From Syntrophorhabdus sp. (lineage in GTDB: Bacteria; Desulfobacterota; Syntrophorhabdia; Syntrophorhabdales; Syntrophorhabdaceae): 64,000 bases of DNA. The notes below the pieces were generated by a model. It had not been told where the DNA came from and did not search any database. It saw nothing but the letters and a program-made list of their open reading frames with translations. The translations under genes were made by a program, and so were the position numbers. Every line of letters starts with the position of its first letter. The first letter of the stretch is position 1. The DNA lies in NCBI GenBank assembly GCA_012719415.1, contig JAAYAK010000237.1, forward strand, positions 1 through 64,000, written 5' to 3'. Positions 14,747 to 27,212 of this stretch are shown here, piece after piece.

Positions 14747-15013
14747 CTAGGGCTTGATCGTCTCAGGCGGGTTGCAGCCTTCGATGCTGGCGCAATCCTC
14801 GGGGATCCTGGGAGGCTTCGGGCAACCCTCGATGCTCTCGCAATCAGCGGCAATGCACATGCACGACCCGTTCGGCTGCAGGTACGCCTTGTAACCCGGG
14901 CCGCACACCGCATCGGTGCAGGGCACCTTTGACTGGGCAAACGAGACACCCTCTGTCATCGAGAACAAAAGGGCCATCGCGATCACGACAAGAACAACAA
15001 CCCGACAACACAT
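14747..15013 (-). CDS. Small secreted Cys-rich protein with a duplicated motif
   Basis: 88 residues with a signal peptide (about 1-26, ending SFAQ) and a strong RBS (AGGAGGTAAGG). The mature part has eight cysteines. The block DC(E/A)SIEGC(P/N)(K)PP occurs twice in its last 33 residues, suggesting a short internal duplication. It is probably periplasmic and disulfide-bonded. I do not recognise the family. Confidence 0.7.
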   Translation of the reverse strand: MCCRVVVLVVIAMALLFSMTEGVSFAQSKVPCTDAVCGPGYKAYLQPNGSCMCIAADCESIEGCPKPPRIPEDCASIEGCNPPETIKP

Positions 15014-15948: not shown

Positions 15949-18771
15949 TTATTTCACCGCCCGCACGGCTTTTTTGACGAGGTCGTCGGGAATGCTTATG
16001 CCGTATTCCTTTGCCAGGGAGAGGCTGAGTGTGAGCTGTTCCGGCACGTAGGAGACGATGGGTATGGCGGCGGGTTTCTCTCCCCCGATGACCCTGACGG
16101 TGAGCTCGGCGGCCTTGAGCCCCACGTCGTAGTAATCCGCTCCGAGGCACATGAAGACCCCGGAATCGATGTCCGCCGGCGTGTTCGTCACGTAAGGGAT
16201 CTTTTTCTGCCGGAGCTTCTGGGCAACAGAGGGGATGACCGCGGAAACGGTCGTGTCTCCCGAGGTGAAGAAGATGTCCGGTTCGCTCGCGAGGATCGAG
16301 CGGAGCGCCTGGTCGATCTCCTGGGTGCCGGTGATCTGGACCTCGACAACCTTAAAGCCATATTTTTTTGCTGCCTCCCGCGTCAGGAGGGTACATATCT
16401 CAGAGTTCGCCTCGGCGGGGTTCCAGATCATCCCGATAACCTTCGCCTTCGGGAAGACCCTGCGCATGAGTTTGACCGTCGCTTCGACGGGTTGCGGGGT
16501 GGCGATTCCCGTAAGGTTTGGGGGGTGATCAGTGAAGCTTTTTGCCGCCCCGGCCTTTATCGGGTCGGTGACCGCCGCGAAAATGTGGGGAATCTCCTTG
16601 TTGTGGTTCACTGTCACCTGGAGTGATATCGTCGATACGGTGACGATATAATCATACTTCTTGCTCACCATCTCCTGGGCAATGGACTGGGCGGTGGGAA
16701 AATCCCCGTTGGCCATCTTGTGGTCGACGGATATTTTTTCTCTCTCGAGGACGCCGCTCTTCTTCAACCCGTCGATAACGCCCTTGGCACAGGTGTCGAG
16801 GATGACGTTGTCGGTGAACTGGAAAAGGGCGAGCCGCTTACCTTGCCCGGATATTCCCCGGGAAGAAGGGTCACCGCCCCGCTTCTGTGTGTTGCCTCCC
16901 TCATCGACGATCACCGTGGCCGCATCGATGAGCTCCCGGGGTATCGTAATCCCCAGTTCCCTTGCGACCTTGAGATTGATACCCAGCACCGTTTCCTTGT
17001 ATCGCTCAAAGGGGATCGAGGCGGGCTTTTCTCCTTTAATGATACGGTCCACCAGGTTTGCGGCCTGCCTGCCGCTGGATTCGTAGGCGTATCCGAAGAC
17101 CACCAGGGCGCCGCCTTCGGGATGGTCGACGTCGTTGAAGATAATGGGCACCTTTCTGCCTCGCGCCGCCTTGACGACGGAATCGAAGGCGGTATAGACG
17201 GTATTATCCGTGGAGAGGACGAAGGCGTCTATTCCCTTTTGGACCAGCGACGCGGCAACCTGGTATACCTCCGAGGAGTTGGCGATGTTGCCGCCGACGA
17301 AGGTGACATTGGGATGATTCTGCACGGCCTTTTTCAGGTTGTTGACGTTGTACTCGGAATTTGCCTGAGAGGGGTCCCAGATAACCCCGATCTTGATCTT
17401 TCCAGGAAGGATCCTGGTGACGATATCCATCGTCCTGTCCATGGGCACTGCGCCGTAGACCCCCGTCATGTTCGGGAGGTGGTCCGTGTCCGACTTGCCT
17501 GCCCCGATGAGGAACGGGTTTGCGACGGTTGCGAAGACCACGGGGCGGTCCTTTATCTTGTTGGCTGCCACCTGCGTGCAGGCCGTGGAGATGGGAACGA
17601 CGATATCCACCTTTTCCCGGAGGAACTTGTCGGCTATGGCGTTCAGGGTGGCAAGTTCCCCGCTGGCGTTTTCGACGATAAAGGTCGCGTTCTTTCCTTC
17701 CACGTAGCCAAGGCGCTTCATCTCTCCGAGAAAGCTGTCACGGGTGATATCGAGGATGGGGTTGTTGCTGACCTGGAAGACACCGATCCTGACCTTTTTT
17801 TGTGGCATGACGGCGACCAGATCCCCGTATTTCACGGAGGCGAAGACTCCCAGGATAACGGCCGCGGCCACTGCTGCCGTCACAAGGTGCTTCTTCTTCA
17901 TCTTTGCTTTCCCCTTGCCGATCTTTGCGGTGACAACGAGGGTGATGAGGACGAAGATCGCCGTCATAAGCTTGAGATCGATGGGGTCCATCCCGGCATA
18001 AAGGGCGGTGGCGATCATGAACCGGAAGATCACCGAACCGATTATCGCACTTGCGATCCAGGTGTAGACGGAATGCTTCTTGAGGATCGACTCCCCGATG
18101 ATGACCGAGGCGAGGCCGGTGACCACGGTCCCGATACCCATGCCGATGTCGGCAAAACCCTGGTACTGTGCCACGAGGCTGCCGGAGATGCCCACAAGAC
18201 CGTTGGCGATGGCGACGCCGAAGATCTTGACATGGTCCACGTTGATGCCGGCCGCGCGCGCCATGGTGGGGTTGTTGCCGGTTGCCCGCATGGAAAGGCC
18301 GAAATCGGTCTTGAAGAAAAAGGAGACGGCGAACCAGGATGCGGCCATGATAAGAGTGAGGCACAACGCCGTCCACGGTTCGCGGGGCAACCCGGGGTTT
18401 GCCTTGTTGAGGAGCGTAAAGAACTCGGGTGTGTCAAGCAATGGTATGTTGGAGCGGCCCATGATGTGGAGGTTGACGGAATAGAGGCCGGTCATGACCA
18501 GAATGCCTGCCAGGAGACTGTTGACATTGAGGCGGGTGTTGATGAGCGCCGTGATGCTTCCCGCGGCGCTGCAGGCGAGAAAAGAGGCCAGTACGGCCAG
18601 GAGAGGATGGACGCCGGAGACGACCAGGACGGAGCTGATGGCGGCGCCCGTCGTGAACGTCCCGTCAACGGTGATGTCGGGAAAGTCATGAATGCGGAAG
18701 GTAATGTAAATGCCGATGGCCACGAAGGCGTAGAGAAAGCCGAGGTTGAGGGCGCCTACCCAGAGCTCCAT
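15949..18771 (-). CDS. ABC permease fused to two tandem substrate-binding domains
   Basis: 940 residues, about three times the normal permease length. Residues 1-300 are a complete BPD_transp_2 permease (about 8-9 helices; FPDITVDGTFTTGAAISS and the GINVDHVKIFGVAIANGL loop). A further helix near 303-320 (VTAAVAAAVILGVFASV) leads to two homologous PF04392-like binding domains: about 325-635 (VRIGVFQVSNNPILD) and about 637-940 (RLALFQFTDNVILD). The two domains are clearly paralogous but diverged. Tethered binding domains are known in some amino-acid and osmolyte ABC systems; I know of none with this permease family and order. The ATG lies three bases after the upstream STAS gene. Confidence 0.88.
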   Translation of the reverse strand: MELWVGALNLGFLYAFVAIGIYITFRIHDFPDITVDGTFTTGAAISSVLVVSGVHPLLAVLASFLACSAAGSITALINTRLNVNSLLAGILVMTGLYSVNLHIMGRSNIPLLDTPEFFTLLNKANPGLPREPWTALCLTLIMAASWFAVSFFFKTDFGLSMRATGNNPTMARAAGINVDHVKIFGVAIANGLVGISGSLVAQYQGFADIGMGIGTVVTGLASVIIGESILKKHSVYTWIASAIIGSVIFRFMIATALYAGMDPIDLKLMTAIFVLITLVVTAKIGKGKAKMKKKHLVTAAVAAAVILGVFASVKYGDLVAVMPQKKVRIGVFQVSNNPILDITRDSFLGEMKRLGYVEGKNATFIVENASGELATLNAIADKFLREKVDIVVPISTACTQVAANKIKDRPVVFATVANPFLIGAGKSDTDHLPNMTGVYGAVPMDRTMDIVTRILPGKIKIGVIWDPSQANSEYNVNNLKKAVQNHPNVTFVGGNIANSSEVYQVAASLVQKGIDAFVLSTDNTVYTAFDSVVKAARGRKVPIIFNDVDHPEGGALVVFGYAYESSGRQAANLVDRIIKGEKPASIPFERYKETVLGINLKVARELGITIPRELIDAATVIVDEGGNTQKRGGDPSSRGISGQGKRLALFQFTDNVILDTCAKGVIDGLKKSGVLEREKISVDHKMANGDFPTAQSIAQEMVSKKYDYIVTVSTISLQVTVNHNKEIPHIFAAVTDPIKAGAAKSFTDHPPNLTGIATPQPVEATVKLMRRVFPKAKVIGMIWNPAEANSEICTLLTREAAKKYGFKVVEVQITGTQEIDQALRSILASEPDIFFTSGDTTVSAVIPSVAQKLRQKKIPYVTNTPADIDSGVFMCLGADYYDVGLKAAELTVRVIGGEKPAAIPIVSYVPEQLTLSLSLAKEYGISIPDDLVKKAVRAVK

Positions 18772-20047: not shown

Positions 20048-20076
20048 TTGACAGGACTGATCAGGGGAGGTAGCAT
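20048..20076 (+). promoter_or_regulatory. Sigma-70 promoter for the cyanovirin-like gene
   Basis: Perfect -35 TTGACA (20048-20053), 17-base spacer and -10 TAGCAT (20071-20076); start expected near 20083, with AAAGGAGGA before the ATG at 20106. Confidence 0.65.
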
Positions 20077-20105
20077 GGATTAAACACAGTCAAAGGAGGA
20101 AGATC

Positions 20106-20561
20106 ATGCGTTCAGCGACAAGGTTGTGTGCGGTGAGCCTCGTCCTTATGTTCCTGGTGTCGGCGGGGTTGTTCGTGTTGACAAACGAGGGGTTGGCCGA
20201 TCCCTGTCCTTCGGGAAGTTACCAGAGGTCGTGCAACATGAGTTCGGCCACATGTACCCCCAGCAGCATCACCGCGTCGTGCAAGAAGATGAATGGTGAC
20301 TGGAGACAATCAAGTCTCAACCTGCCCTGCAGGCAGGAAATATCCAACTGTGACGGTACGCTGCGTTGTCTTTGCGGCAGCGACTGCCCGGCGGGAAGCT
20401 ATAACCAGTCCTGCTGGTGCTGCTACATTCAGGGTTCAACCCTGGGTTGTTTCTGCAAGAACAAAAAGGGAAAGTCGGTACCCACGACCCTTTCCGGTTA
20501 CACGTCGTGCAGGTCTAACACGATCTGGAACGATAATGGCAAGTTGAAGTGTCAAAGGTAG
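20106..20561 (+). CDS. Secreted cyanovirin-N-like (CVNH) Cys-rich protein
   Basis: 151 residues with a signal peptide (about 1-31, GLA/DPC). The mature chain contains two CVNH-like repeats. Repeat 1 (about 35-85) has GSYQRSC, then a SC/KKMNG-W-SSL-L segment, ending in ISNCDGTLRC; repeat 2 (about 97-151) has GSYNQSC, NKKGK, and WNDNGKLKC. The G(S/N)(F/Y)..SC opening and the N.DG.L(K/R) ending are the CVNH hallmarks. It differs from cyanovirin-N in being far richer in Cys (about 17 in the mature part). CVNH proteins bind mannose-rich or other glycans; extracellular or periplasmic glycan binding is inferred. It has its own promoter and RBS. Confidence 0.75.
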   Translation: MRSATRLCAVSLVLMFLVSAGLFVLTNEGLADPCPSGSYQRSCNMSSATCTPSSITASCKKMNGDWRQSSLNLPCRQEISNCDGTLRCLCGSDCPAGSYNQSCWCCYIQGSTLGCFCKNKKGKSVPTTLSGYTSCRSNTIWNDNGKLKCQR

Positions 20562-23500: not shown

Positions 23501-24118
23501 CTATGTTTCCGGCTGTTTCCTCTTCAACCTTTTCAGGGCGTCGATTATATTGCCGGGCCCACCGTGCTTCTTCGTTTCCCCGTTCGTCTCGATCACGCAT
23601 GACGGGGTGGCATCGATGGCATCTTCCTTCAGATGACGCGAGAACACCTTGAAGGTGTGACCGGGATCGAAAGGTTTCAGTGCTATCCCATCCTTCTTGA
23701 GGAAGGTTTCCAGTTTGTCCGCGCTGTCGAGGCCGTTCTTCGCCGCCTCTATCAGGGCGCGTCTCACGCGCAGCGCGTGTTCGAGGTCCTTCTTCGCGTT
23801 GATGGCGTAAAGGAAACAGCGGGCATAGAGCGAAGAATACCTGTAGAACGGTGTGTCCACGAAGATCAGAGTTATGGCGTTGCTTCTCACGAGGTCCGTT
23901 ATGACAGGTTCGATGCCCGGTTCCATGTCCCTGCAGGGGGGACAGAAATAGTCGGAGTACAGCCTGACCTTCACCTTGCCCTCCCCGAAGGATGGAATGG
24001 GCGGATCAGTCGCACCGGCCGTGGGCGGAAGAATGATGGCCATGAAGATGAGGGCAAGAAACATCAGCACCGTCCGCATCGGTTGTCCGGGTGACTTCAA
24101 ACAGCGATCAGCTTTCAT
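23501..24118 (-). CDS. DsbA-like periplasmic thiol oxidoreductase
   Basis: 205 residues with an N-terminal signal or anchor (LMFLALIFMAIILPPTAGA). The thioredoxin-fold active site is CPPC in YSDYFCPPCRDMEP (about residue 60), followed by a helical insertion and the cis-Pro region DATPSCVI. It lies three bases after the VKOR gene. The pair forms a standard disulfide-forming system: VKOR reoxidises the DsbA-like protein. The start at 24118 is supported by GGGGAG. Confidence 0.88.
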   Translation of the reverse strand: MKADRCLKSPGQPMRTVLMFLALIFMAIILPPTAGATDPPIPSFGEGKVKVRLYSDYFCPPCRDMEPGIEPVITDLVRSNAITLIFVDTPFYRYSSLYARCFLYAINAKKDLEHALRVRRALIEAAKNGLDSADKLETFLKKDGIALKPFDPGHTFKVFSRHLKEDAIDATPSCVIETNGETKKHGGPGNIIDALKRLKRKQPET

Positions 24119-24121
24119 CTA

Positions 24122-24682
24122 TCATCTCCCCGCATGTTGCTGGGCGACCATGGCTGGCCACGTGGTTCCGAAGGTCTCCATGAAGAATTCCTGCATTGTG
24201 TACGAGTAGGATGGCGCGAGAGAGCCCTTGAAGAACAGAGAAAAAATGATGAGGGCCGCTGCCATGGATATCGCGCAGAGGGTCTTTTGGTTGCGCCGAA
24301 AGTTCAGGATGAAGAGTATGAAGACGATCGCCGCGAAGGCCAGGCAGTACGGGCAATAGGTACCATACCATACCTGGAAGCCGATGAGATAGAACTCAAT
24401 CCCCACGCCGGCAGATATCAGGACGATAAGAAGCATGTCTTTCCTGAGAAGACTGAGGAGGATGACACAGGCCATGAAAGCCATGCCGATGTATTGAAGA
24501 TCGATCCCCAGAAGTGTGCCCTTGAGGTAGGAGCACGAACCCGCGCAGATGCTGTAGTAGATCTCGAGGCCGATGGCCAGACACGCGAGAAGGATGCTGA
24601 TGAGATAACGCCGATACAGTATCCTGCCGGCGATTGACAGCCGGGCCTCCCGGGAATCATGTAGCTCGGCAGTATTTCCCAT
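24122..24682 (-). CDS. VKOR-family membrane protein
   Basis: 186 residues, five membrane helices. The redox CxxC is YCPYC (about residue 119-123), and the periplasmic loop Cys pair lies in CAGSCSYLKG near 47-51, as in bacterial vitamin K epoxide reductase homologues that replace DsbB. It passes electrons from the DsbA-like partner to quinone. It sits in a minus-strand series under the ArsR at 26838-27158. Confidence 0.9.
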   Translation of the reverse strand: MGNTAELHDSREARLSIAGRILYRRYLISILLACLAIGLEIYYSICAGSCSYLKGTLLGIDLQYIGMAFMACVILLSLLRKDMLLIVLISAGVGIEFYLIGFQVWYGTYCPYCLAFAAIVFILFILNFRRNQKTLCAISMAAALIIFSLFFKGSLAPSYSYTMQEFFMETFGTTWPAMVAQQHAGR

Positions 24683-24852: not shown

Positions 24853-25272
24853 TTACCTCGAAGAAGACATTTTTTCCAGAACAGCTTTCAAAACAATGCC
24901 TGTTTCGTCGGGCAGTCTATCGAAGCTGTGGACCTTCGCTATGCCGAGGTCGGTGACGACAAAATACAGTGACGGCTCGATGGCATACTTCTCCAAGGCC
25001 TTTTTCGGGCATCCGGTTGGGCACCTGTCGATGACGACCGTTCGGGCCGCCTTGGCGCTTTCGGTGAAACCCGAAAGGGAGGCTCCGATGCCGGCAAGGT
25101 AGTGGGCATTGCCGAGTCCCTTCCTGCCAAGCTCTATCATCATACTGTTCCACACCTGGCCCGCGTTCGATGCACCCGAGCAGGCGACGACAAGGGTGGG
25201 AGTTTGCGACCCGCAGCAGGCGTCTCCGGCACCGGGATCTGTGGTGCAACATCCGTCCTTCTCTTTCGACAT
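24853..25272 (-). CDS. DGC-domain (putative zinc-binding) protein
   Basis: 139 residues. A Cys-rich head (CC..CC in the first 20 residues) precedes the DGC-type domain: VVACSGASNAGQ near 29-40 and DRCPTGCPKKALE near 81-93, where the family has D-G-C. Such proteins accompany thiol and metalloid-resistance genes. The operon position between the lipoprotein and the small thioredoxin supports a cytoplasmic metal or thiol role. Confidence 0.8.
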   Translation of the reverse strand: MSKEKDGCCTTDPGAGDACCGSQTPTLVVACSGASNAGQVWNSMMIELGRKGLGNAHYLAGIGASLSGFTESAKAARTVVIDRCPTGCPKKALEKYAIEPSLYFVVTDLGIAKVHSFDRLPDETGIVLKAVLEKMSSSR

Positions 25273-25289
25273 ACCGTTATCTTCTCTTT

Positions 25290-25520
25290 CTACAAGAATT
25301 TCTTGATCTCTTCCACGGAAAGGACCTTTCCGACGCTCTTCACCACGCCATCGACAGCCAGAGCCGGCGTCATCATAACGCCGTAGTTCATGATATCGTT
25401 GATATTCTGAACCTTTTCGATCTCGAACTCCACACCGGCATCCCTGGCCGCTTTCTCAGCGTTCTCCGTGAGTTTCATACACTTGGCACAGCCTGTGCCG
25501 AGAATCTGAATTTTCTTCAT
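25290..25520 (-). CDS. Small thioredoxin-like redox protein (TM0996/MTH895 type)
   Basis: 76 residues from ATG 25520, which has AAGGAGG at a seven-base spacing; a GTG at 25529 overlaps that RBS. The active site is CAKC in LGTGCAKCMKL near residues 10-13, and the chain has the MTPALAVDG cis-Pro loop. These minimal thioredoxins often sit beside arsenic permeases. It lies 16 bases after the permease stop. Confidence 0.9.
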   Translation of the reverse strand: MKKIQILGTGCAKCMKLTENAEKAARDAGVEFEIEKVQNINDIMNYGVMMTPALAVDGVVKSVGKVLSVEEIKKFL

Positions 25521-25536
25521 TTCCTTCACCTCCTTT

Positions 25537-26826
25537 TCATTCGATGATCCACCCGTACAGCATGCCCGCGAAGGTGTAGAGCAATACGACGTACACTATG
25601 AAGACGGCGGTCTTTTTCGTGCCAAGGACGGTCCGGATGACGATCATGCTCGGTAGGGAAAGGGCGGGCCCTGCGAGAAGCAATGAGAGGGCGGGGCCCT
25701 GACCCATCCCGGAGCCCAGAAGCCCCTCAACGATGGGCACCTCTGTCAGTGTCGCGAAGTACATGAAGGCACCCACGATCGACGCGAAGAGGTTGGGGAG
25801 AAAACCATTGCCCCCGACCAATGCGGCAATCCACCGGGACGGGATGATCCCGTTGTCCGTCCCCGGCATGCCGAGGAGAAATCCCGCAACCACAACCCCG
25901 CCCAGCAGCAGGGGTGCTATCATGAGAGCGTACATCCAGGTTGAGTCGATCCAGCTTTTGGTCTCGTCCGACGAGGTCTTCGTTACCCACACGACCCCCG
26001 CGATGCCGGCCGAGAAAGGTAGAAGAGGCCACTTCGGGAAGAGAAGCGCAAGGACGAGAACGACGGCGCCGATTATCACGGTGGGTAGGGGTTTTGCTCC
26101 GAACCACCTCACAATAACAAAACCGAAGAGGATGCCGAAGAGACCGGTGACGTACCACTTTGCCACATATATGCCATACCACAGCCCCGCTTCCTCCATC
26201 GGCTTTCCCCAGTTCGCGAAAACGAGGATGCCGATCATGGACGCCATGTAGACGACGTCCTGCCAGAGCTTTCTCTTCGGCTCTTCCTCAGGCATGCAGA
26301 CAGCCTGTTTGGAGGCCTCTTCCTTTCGGAAGGTGACGGCCATGAGAAGTCCTATCACGTAGGCGAACAGGACCGCGCCGATGGCCCGTGCCAGACCGAT
26401 CTTCCACCCCAGGACCTTGGCGGACAGAACGATGGCGAGGACATTGATGGCGGGTCCCGAGTACAGGAACGAGGTGGCGGGTCCCACGCCTGCCCCCATC
26501 CGGTATATGCCGGCGAAAAGGGGCAGAACGGTGCAGGAGCAAACGGCGAGCACGGTACCCGAAACGGATGCCACCGAATAGGAGAGACACTTGTTCGCCG
26601 CCGGGCCGAGGTACTTCATAACCGATGCCTGGGAGACGAAGACCGAGATGGCACCGGCGATGAAAAAGGCCGGTACGAGGCACAGCAGTACATGCTTCTG
26701 CGCGTAGTCCTGGAGCATATAGAAAGATTCCAGGATGGCCTTCTGGACCGATACGCTTTCAAAGGGAATGAAATAAGCGGCGATAAAGGCCCCGAGGAGT
26801 ATGAGAAATTTGTATATGTCTTTCAT
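25537..26826 (-). CDS. Permease of the DUF318/UPF0718 (ArsP-like) family
   Basis: 429 residues, about ten membrane helices. Two homologous halves are visible, the first with the motif CSCTVLPLFAGIYRMGAGVGPATSFLYSGPAIN broken here by the 20-residue limit as CSCTVLPLFAGI and GVGPATSFLYSGPAIN. Family members export methylated or inorganic arsenicals or other metals. It follows the ArsR gene by 11 bases and precedes the small thioredoxin. Substrate is inferred from context. Confidence 0.85.
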   Translation of the reverse strand: MKDIYKFLILLGAFIAAYFIPFESVSVQKAILESFYMLQDYAQKHVLLCLVPAFFIAGAISVFVSQASVMKYLGPAANKCLSYSVASVSGTVLAVCSCTVLPLFAGIYRMGAGVGPATSFLYSGPAINVLAIVLSAKVLGWKIGLARAIGAVLFAYVIGLLMAVTFRKEEASKQAVCMPEEEPKRKLWQDVVYMASMIGILVFANWGKPMEEAGLWYGIYVAKWYVTGLFGILFGFVIVRWFGAKPLPTVIIGAVVLVLALLFPKWPLLPFSAGIAGVVWVTKTSSDETKSWIDSTWMYALMIAPLLLGGVVVAGFLLGMPGTDNGIIPSRWIAALVGGNGFLPNLFASIVGAFMYFATLTEVPIVEGLLGSGMGQGPALSLLLAGPALSLPSMIVIRTVLGTKKTAVFIVYVVLLYTFAGMLYGWIIE

Positions 26827-26837
26827 ATGATCGCCCT

Positions 26838-27158
26838 CTATCTTTTACAGAGGCACACCTGCTGTCTGCGGACATTGTTCTCGATCACTGCGGTGACACA
26901 GCAAAAAAAATCGGTCACGCAGGGCACTTCCAGCCTGTAGATCATGTCCGCGCCGGTCTTTTGAGACGTGATGATGCCGGCTTCTTTGAGGACGAGCAGG
27001 TGCTTTGAAACGGTGGACTTGTCCAACGTGAAGAGACTGAATATCTCGGAAAAAGACCGTGTGCCGTCTTTTAGAAACTCTATCATCATGAGTCTCACCG
27101 GGTGACCCATGGCCTTGATGATGTTGCTTCGTATTTCCGCTTCTTCCATTGTTATCAT
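26838..27158 (-). CDS. ArsR-family repressor with Cys-rich tail
   Basis: 106 residues from ATG 27158 (RBS GAGGAGA); an in-frame extension upstream would run through the operator and is rejected. The winged HTH is clear (MGHPVRLMMIEFL, LDKSTVSKHLLVLKEAG). It lacks the classical ELCVCDL metal site. Instead the C-terminus carries CVTDFFCC and CLCKR, a plausible alternative metalloid site. It heads the minus operon and probably binds the palindrome over its own -10. Confidence 0.9.
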   Translation of the reverse strand: MITMEEAEIRSNIIKAMGHPVRLMMIEFLKDGTRSFSEIFSLFTLDKSTVSKHLLVLKEAGIITSQKTGADMIYRLEVPCVTDFFCCVTAVIENNVRRQQVCLCKR

Positions 27159-27176
27159 AGCGTCTCCTCTTGCATC

Positions 27177-27212
27177 GTTGGTCAATATACCAACAGACCA
27201 ATAAGTAATCAA
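27177..27212 (-). promoter_or_regulatory. ArsR operator embedded in its own promoter
   Basis: Minus strand -35 TTGATT (27212-27207), 17-base spacer, -10 TATATT (27189-27184). The -10 lies inside the perfect inverted repeat GTTGGT-N6-ACCAAC (27177-27194). A second, wider repeat TTGGTC-N12-GACCAA (27178-27201) shares the left half. A repressor bound here would block RNA polymerase directly. Confidence 0.7.

Follow-up and report, generated by a model that had tools for sequence, protein, structure and literature searches.

In the window, by which we mean the whole 64,000-nucleotide stretch of Syntrophorhabdus sp. DNA analysed here, we identify a gene whose product (hereafter the window protein) belongs, on the evidence of profile and sequence searches, to the CVNH family. 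The reading that we favour, with moderate confidence, is that a Syntrophorhabdus-like anaerobe exports the window protein as a CVNH lectin braced by disulfides, which would act on cell-surface or matrix glycans.

The features of the gene and of its product are collected in Table 1. As the first-pass annotation of this DNA had proposed, the gene is preceded by a putative promoter and appears to begin with a signal peptide. The leader, read by eye from the sequence, consists of a hydrophobic stretch that ends in GLA before D, and cleavage at this point would leave a mature chain of 120 residues (aa 32-151). For the candidate promoter, one consensus-like site of the type TTGACA-17-TAGCAT was found versus 0.3 expected in shuffles, and both hexamers are identical in 3/3 orthologues, with a variable spacer between them.

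Table 1. Coordinates of the CVNH gene, its predicted signals and subdomains, and the putative disulfide-forming genes, as positions in the window.
Feature	Position	Strand	Details
CVNH-family precursor gene	20106..20561	+	151 aa, ATG start; Pfam PF08881, 26.3 bits vs cut-off 24.5
Predicted Sec signal peptide, aa 1-31	20106..20198	+	Cleavage after GLA, without lipobox; by eye
Sigma-70-like promoter, TTGACA-17-TAGCAT	20048..20076	+	Consensus match only, 10/12 positions
Shine-Dalgarno AGGAGG	20094..20099	+	From sequence; invariant in 3 orthologues
CVNH repeat 1, aa 37-88, plain type	20214..20369	+	C43, C59, C75, C88 plus C50, C82
Inter-repeat linker with C90, C94	20370..20393	+	Only in window-type subfamily, 3/25 proteins
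CVNH repeat 2, aa 97-149, microvirin-domain-A type	20394..20552	+	C103-C117 with C106-C115, plus C105, C135/C149
DsbA-like thioredoxin and VKOR-like protein, side by side	23501-24682	-	VKOR match just under Pfam cut-off

The family assignment begins with a Pfam-A search, in which the single match of the window protein is CVNH (PF08881, E=1.3e-5, 26.3 bits with a cut-off of 24.5, profile positions 1-102 of 102); the profile search thus returns as significant the family that the first-pass annotation had named. Among NCBIfam models, the single match is the 'mannose-binding lectin' NF052356 (E=3.5e-10), with a score of 40.5 bits that is under the equivalog cut-off of 80, and the same model matches 10/10 family members. 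When the single sequence is searched against PDB sequences, tandem cyanovirin-N constructs (E=5.5e-8) and cyanovirin-N are retrieved. With the profile of an alignment of ten relatives (A3), the top match becomes the 'mannan-binding lectin' 2y1s (E=2.7e-6), the printed residues of which agree with the microvirin numbering used in PMC11768445.

The tandem repeats of about 50 residues that the first-pass annotation had described are also seen, at aa 37-88 and 97-149, and their C43/C59 and C103/C117 pairs are invariant in A3. Aligned with each other, the two show little similarity, most of it due to cysteine: the score of repeat 1 against repeat 2 is reached by 9/2000 shuffles, and by 452/2000 shuffles once the cysteines are masked. 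This loss of similarity on masking, a Pfam score that exceeds the cut-off by 1.8 bits and the poor AlphaFold models described below would all be in keeping with another fold, the CVNH match then being an artefact of cysteine-rich composition. We nevertheless find such an artefact scarcely credible, as PF08881 matches all ten A3 relatives at E<=0.01, with no other Pfam family and including sequences with 10 cysteines. In addition, the non-cysteine signature positions G-x-Y and I-x-N-x-x-G are conserved in A3, and microvirin and cyanovirin-N are the top matches of the sequence and fold searches.

AlphaFold modelling of three orthologues with and without the signal peptide gave pLDDT values of 40.5 and 47.0, which are of low confidence, so that the fold is not established independently of sequence. 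In a Foldseek search with the second of these low-confidence models, cyanovirin-N entries occupy ranks 1-14 (best E=2.9e-4) at TM-scores of about 0.23; given these TM-scores, and since the Foldseek ranking draws on sequence as well as on structure, this is weak support. The structure prediction that the first-pass annotation had suggested places only cyanovirin-N among the nearest structural neighbours, and does so through a model of low confidence.

The first-pass annotation had further described many cysteines, and the precursor contains 17, of which 16 fall in the predicted mature chain; among the window's 68 non-overlapping ORFs that reach 80 aa, it ranks first in cysteine fraction. A3 has ten invariant cysteine columns. 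Within each repeat, C1 and C2 correspond to the positions of the cyanovirin-N pairs C8-C22 and C58-C73, as given in PMC3407925. To these are added further cysteines, which we tallied in 25 distinct proteins (56 repeats) from the loci retrieved. With related sequences counted as independent, the C1+3 and C2-2 cysteines occur together in 24/56 repeats and are both missing from 32/56; likewise, 42/56 repeats have the loop cysteine together with the one at L+2 (two residues past the motif leucine) and 14/56 have neither, with 0 discordant repeats in either case. The first pair, C106-C115 in the window protein, has the same offsets as Cys63-Cys78 of microvirin, while the second corresponds to C75-C88 and C135-C149. 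That two cysteine pairs are gained or lost together without exception is the behaviour expected of disulfides, and the extra cysteines of the window protein are probably additional disulfide braces.

A cysteine following the N of I-x-N-x-x-G (C82 in the window protein) is found in 22/25 proteins, all 22 of which have a further extra cysteine, either at C1+2 (17 proteins) or at N+10 (5 proteins). The three proteins without the N-motif cysteine are also without the C1+2 and N+10 cysteines. This co-occurrence suggests that C82 pairs with C105 or with a linker cysteine. Only the window type has C34, C50, C90 and C94. Counted from the start of the first repeat, 8/25 family proteins have an odd number of cysteines (11), so that intramolecular disulfides cannot take up every cysteine there, and these eight probably have either a free thiol or a disulfide between molecules. 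The order of the repeats varies as well: in relatives at two loci (L050 and L051), the plain repeat follows the one with the microvirin-type pair, whereas in the window protein it precedes it.

Clustered cysteines of this kind (CWCC, CFC, CLCGSDC) could instead serve in metal binding or redox chemistry on a CVNH scaffold, and both the CxC, CC and CxxxC spacings among the 16 cysteines and the presence 2-7 kb away of genes for a predicted cation-efflux protein, an ArsP-like permease and an ArsR-type regulator are consistent with such a role. We consider it distinctly improbable, as the metal genes lie on the opposite strand with no sign of shared regulation, the two perfectly co-occurring cysteine pairs sit at known or plausible disulfide positions, and export together with the VKOR/DsbA-type proteins favours oxidation. 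The DsbA-like and VKOR-like genes adjoin the cation-efflux gene and may make up a disulfide-forming pair in an anaerobe. Their presence, along with that of VKOR relatives in 43/46 genomes of the class, makes disulfide formation outside the cytoplasm possible in the group. As dedicated partners of the lectin, however, they were rejected, because VKOR occurs in 43/46 genomes versus 13/46 for the lectin family, which points to general machinery.

Several other genes were observed around the CVNH gene. At 24853-27212 (minus strand), a DGC-domain protein, a small thioredoxin, the ArsP-like permease and the ArsR-type regulator form a cluster resembling an arsenic or metal response. On the other side, at 15949-18771 (minus strand), a 940-aa ORF joins an ABC permease domain to a tandem pair of PF04392 substrate-binding domains, and its syntenic counterpart in the contig of one orthologue (L029, 3459-5327) is 622 aa long with apparently one substrate-binding domain. 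An 88-aa ORF at 14747-15013 (minus strand) looks exported, contains cysteine and has no Pfam match; a similar 88-aa ORF is located at 6293-6559 of L029. The neighbouring genes were set aside in assigning a role: synteny covers a STAS gene with its flanks in this one orthologue contig, but these lie on the opposite strand and give no indication of function. Near sister CVNH genes, a small putative lipoprotein is encoded at four loci (L028 8282-8830, L027 6392-6940, L032 6984-7535 and L033 3549-4100); three of these copies have N-termini that are alike, and the L028 copy is without a Pfam match up to E=5.

When compared with known relatives, the window protein is most readily set beside microvirin (MVN) of Microcystis aeruginosa (PDB 2y1s/2yhh), which likewise has two CVNH repeats. 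In both proteins, the first repeat has one disulfide position and the second has two that are nested. In microvirin the nested disulfides are Cys60-Cys80 and Cys63-Cys78, according to PMC3407925, and these are the positions of C103-C117 and C106-C115 in the window protein. Unlike microvirin, which has 6 cysteines, the window protein has a predicted signal peptide and 16 cysteines, and is identical at one of the seven listed mannobiose-site residues. Cyanovirin-N (CV-N) of Nostoc ellipsosporum is the nearest neighbour in the fold search with the low-confidence model, and its pairs C8-C22 and C58-C73 are equivalent to C43-C59 and C103-C117; its cysteines number 4, and charged residues are abundant in its two mannobiose sites.

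Three-repeat CVNH proteins of another family of the same phylum (f18; L017-L021, L037 and L038) share with the window protein a leader resembling a signal peptide and four-cysteine repeats. These proteins differ in their number of repeats, in the place of the microvirin-type extra pair, which is in their first repeat and not in the second, and in being without the C1+2 cysteine. The 'CVNH domain-containing' protein of Rhizobium lusitanum plasmid p_3 (WP_183686486.1) is 34% identical over 93% of the query and also has four-cysteine repeats, but it has three of them and none of the extra cysteine pairs. As the annotation of the Rhizobium protein shows, CVNH proteins of non-cyanobacterial bacteria are on record; the nested disulfide is already known in microvirin, and the four-cysteine repeat is common to CVNH proteins of other bacteria. 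For these reasons, the 'new lectin type' of the first-pass annotation is too strong a term, although its description as an exported CVNH protein with extra cysteines agrees with our analysis. The window protein is a cysteine-rich CVNH variant that extends the known family with an unusual set of putative disulfides.

Whether the sugar site is retained was assessed by mapping residues by hand onto the printed alignments. The residues that contact or shape the mannobiose pocket of microvirin are given in PMC11768445 as N44, Q54, N55, E58, T59, Q81 and M83, and their equivalents in the window protein are N81, G97, S98, Q101, S102, K118 and K120, respectively. One of the seven is identical (N44 to N81) and one is conservative (T59 to S102), while the others are replaced (Q54 to G97, N55 to S98, E58 to Q101, Q81 to K118 and M83 to K120), and over these seven manually mapped residues the mannobiose site of a microvirin- or CV-N-type lectin is not conserved. 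In a similar manual mapping to cyanovirin-N, N42, K74 and N93 are kept, R76 is replaced by K, and T7/T57 are replaced by S. The lysines K118 and K120 resemble K74 and R76 of cyanovirin-N, and PMC11768445 states that the Q81K/M83R substitution makes microvirin binding stronger.

The replacement of most known mannobiose-site residues, set beside a strictly kept core cysteine framework, would fit a CVNH-fold protein that has lost sugar binding and instead has a structural or matrix role in the cell envelope as a protein rich in disulfides, or acts there as a protein-binding module. We regard this as unlikely: N81 and N142, the equivalents of the pocket asparagines, and S102 are invariant in the ten-sequence A3 alignment, and the likeness of K118/K120 to the cyanovirin-N residues argues in the same direction. 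To our knowledge, the CVNH members characterised to date are sugar binders. A sugar pocket in the window protein is plausible. As the sugar-site residues are kept only in part, mannose specificity is not established, and the sugar ligand cannot be predicted from sequence.

The distribution of relatives delineates a small CVNH family in a Syntrophorhabdus-like clade. A second CVNH copy, 45% identical to the window protein, is found on another contig of the same genome. Across the class sample, a CVNH match at E<=0.01 occurs in 11/46 genomes and lies above the cut-off in 8/46, and the A3 profile finds the family in 13/46 genomes (9/12 from the window's genus, 3/7 from genus g12 and 1/1 from g7). 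Window-type orthologues with 16 cysteines are limited to 3/46 class genomes (G000, G008 and G010), and copies 90-91% identical occur on two public contigs titled Syntrophorhabdus sp. and Syntrophobacterales bacterium. In the phylum sample, 8/395 genomes match, three from the window's family and five from genus g64 of family f18. Tandem duplicates are present among the relatives (L027, L031, L032 and L034). Between orthologues, dN/dS is 0.13-0.20 for the full gene and 0.10-0.12 for the mature part, with a higher dN in the signal peptide than in the mature part; the orthologues are under purifying selection, and such low values indicate that the protein is maintained. A viral origin was rejected, as no relative was found in viral contigs (with the protein or A3 as query), in 50,697 phage records or in PHROGs. 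By title, the open-licence literature yielded no CVNH protein of Syntrophorhabdus or Desulfobacterota, and reports elsewhere are possible.

Under the favoured reading of an exported lectin, the window protein would be carried by the Sec pathway to the periplasm or cell surface and then oxidised to about eight disulfides. The best supported of these putative disulfides are C43-C59, C103-C117, C106-C115, C75-C88 and C135-C149; C82 may be joined to C105 or to a linker cysteine, with C34, C50, C90 and C94 as the remaining candidates. By analogy with microvirin, the resulting very rigid lectin might then bind a glycan that belongs to the matrix or to the surface of the producing cell or a neighbour. 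Microvirin itself binds the LPS of its producer, and a role in colony formation has been proposed, according to PMC4390846. A bolder version, in which a hyper-disulfide-braced CVNH family specific to the Syntrophorhabdus-like clade mediates adhesion to a methanogenic partner or floc matrix through partner surface glycans, is in our estimate improbable. CVNH lectins have been studied as antiviral sugar binders, and partner recognition in syntrophic anaerobes is poorly understood. A highly cross-linked natural CVNH lectin would be a stable scaffold, and if the window protein does bind surface glycans, it would offer a candidate, open to testing, for how a syntrophic anaerobe makes contact with other cells or with matrix.
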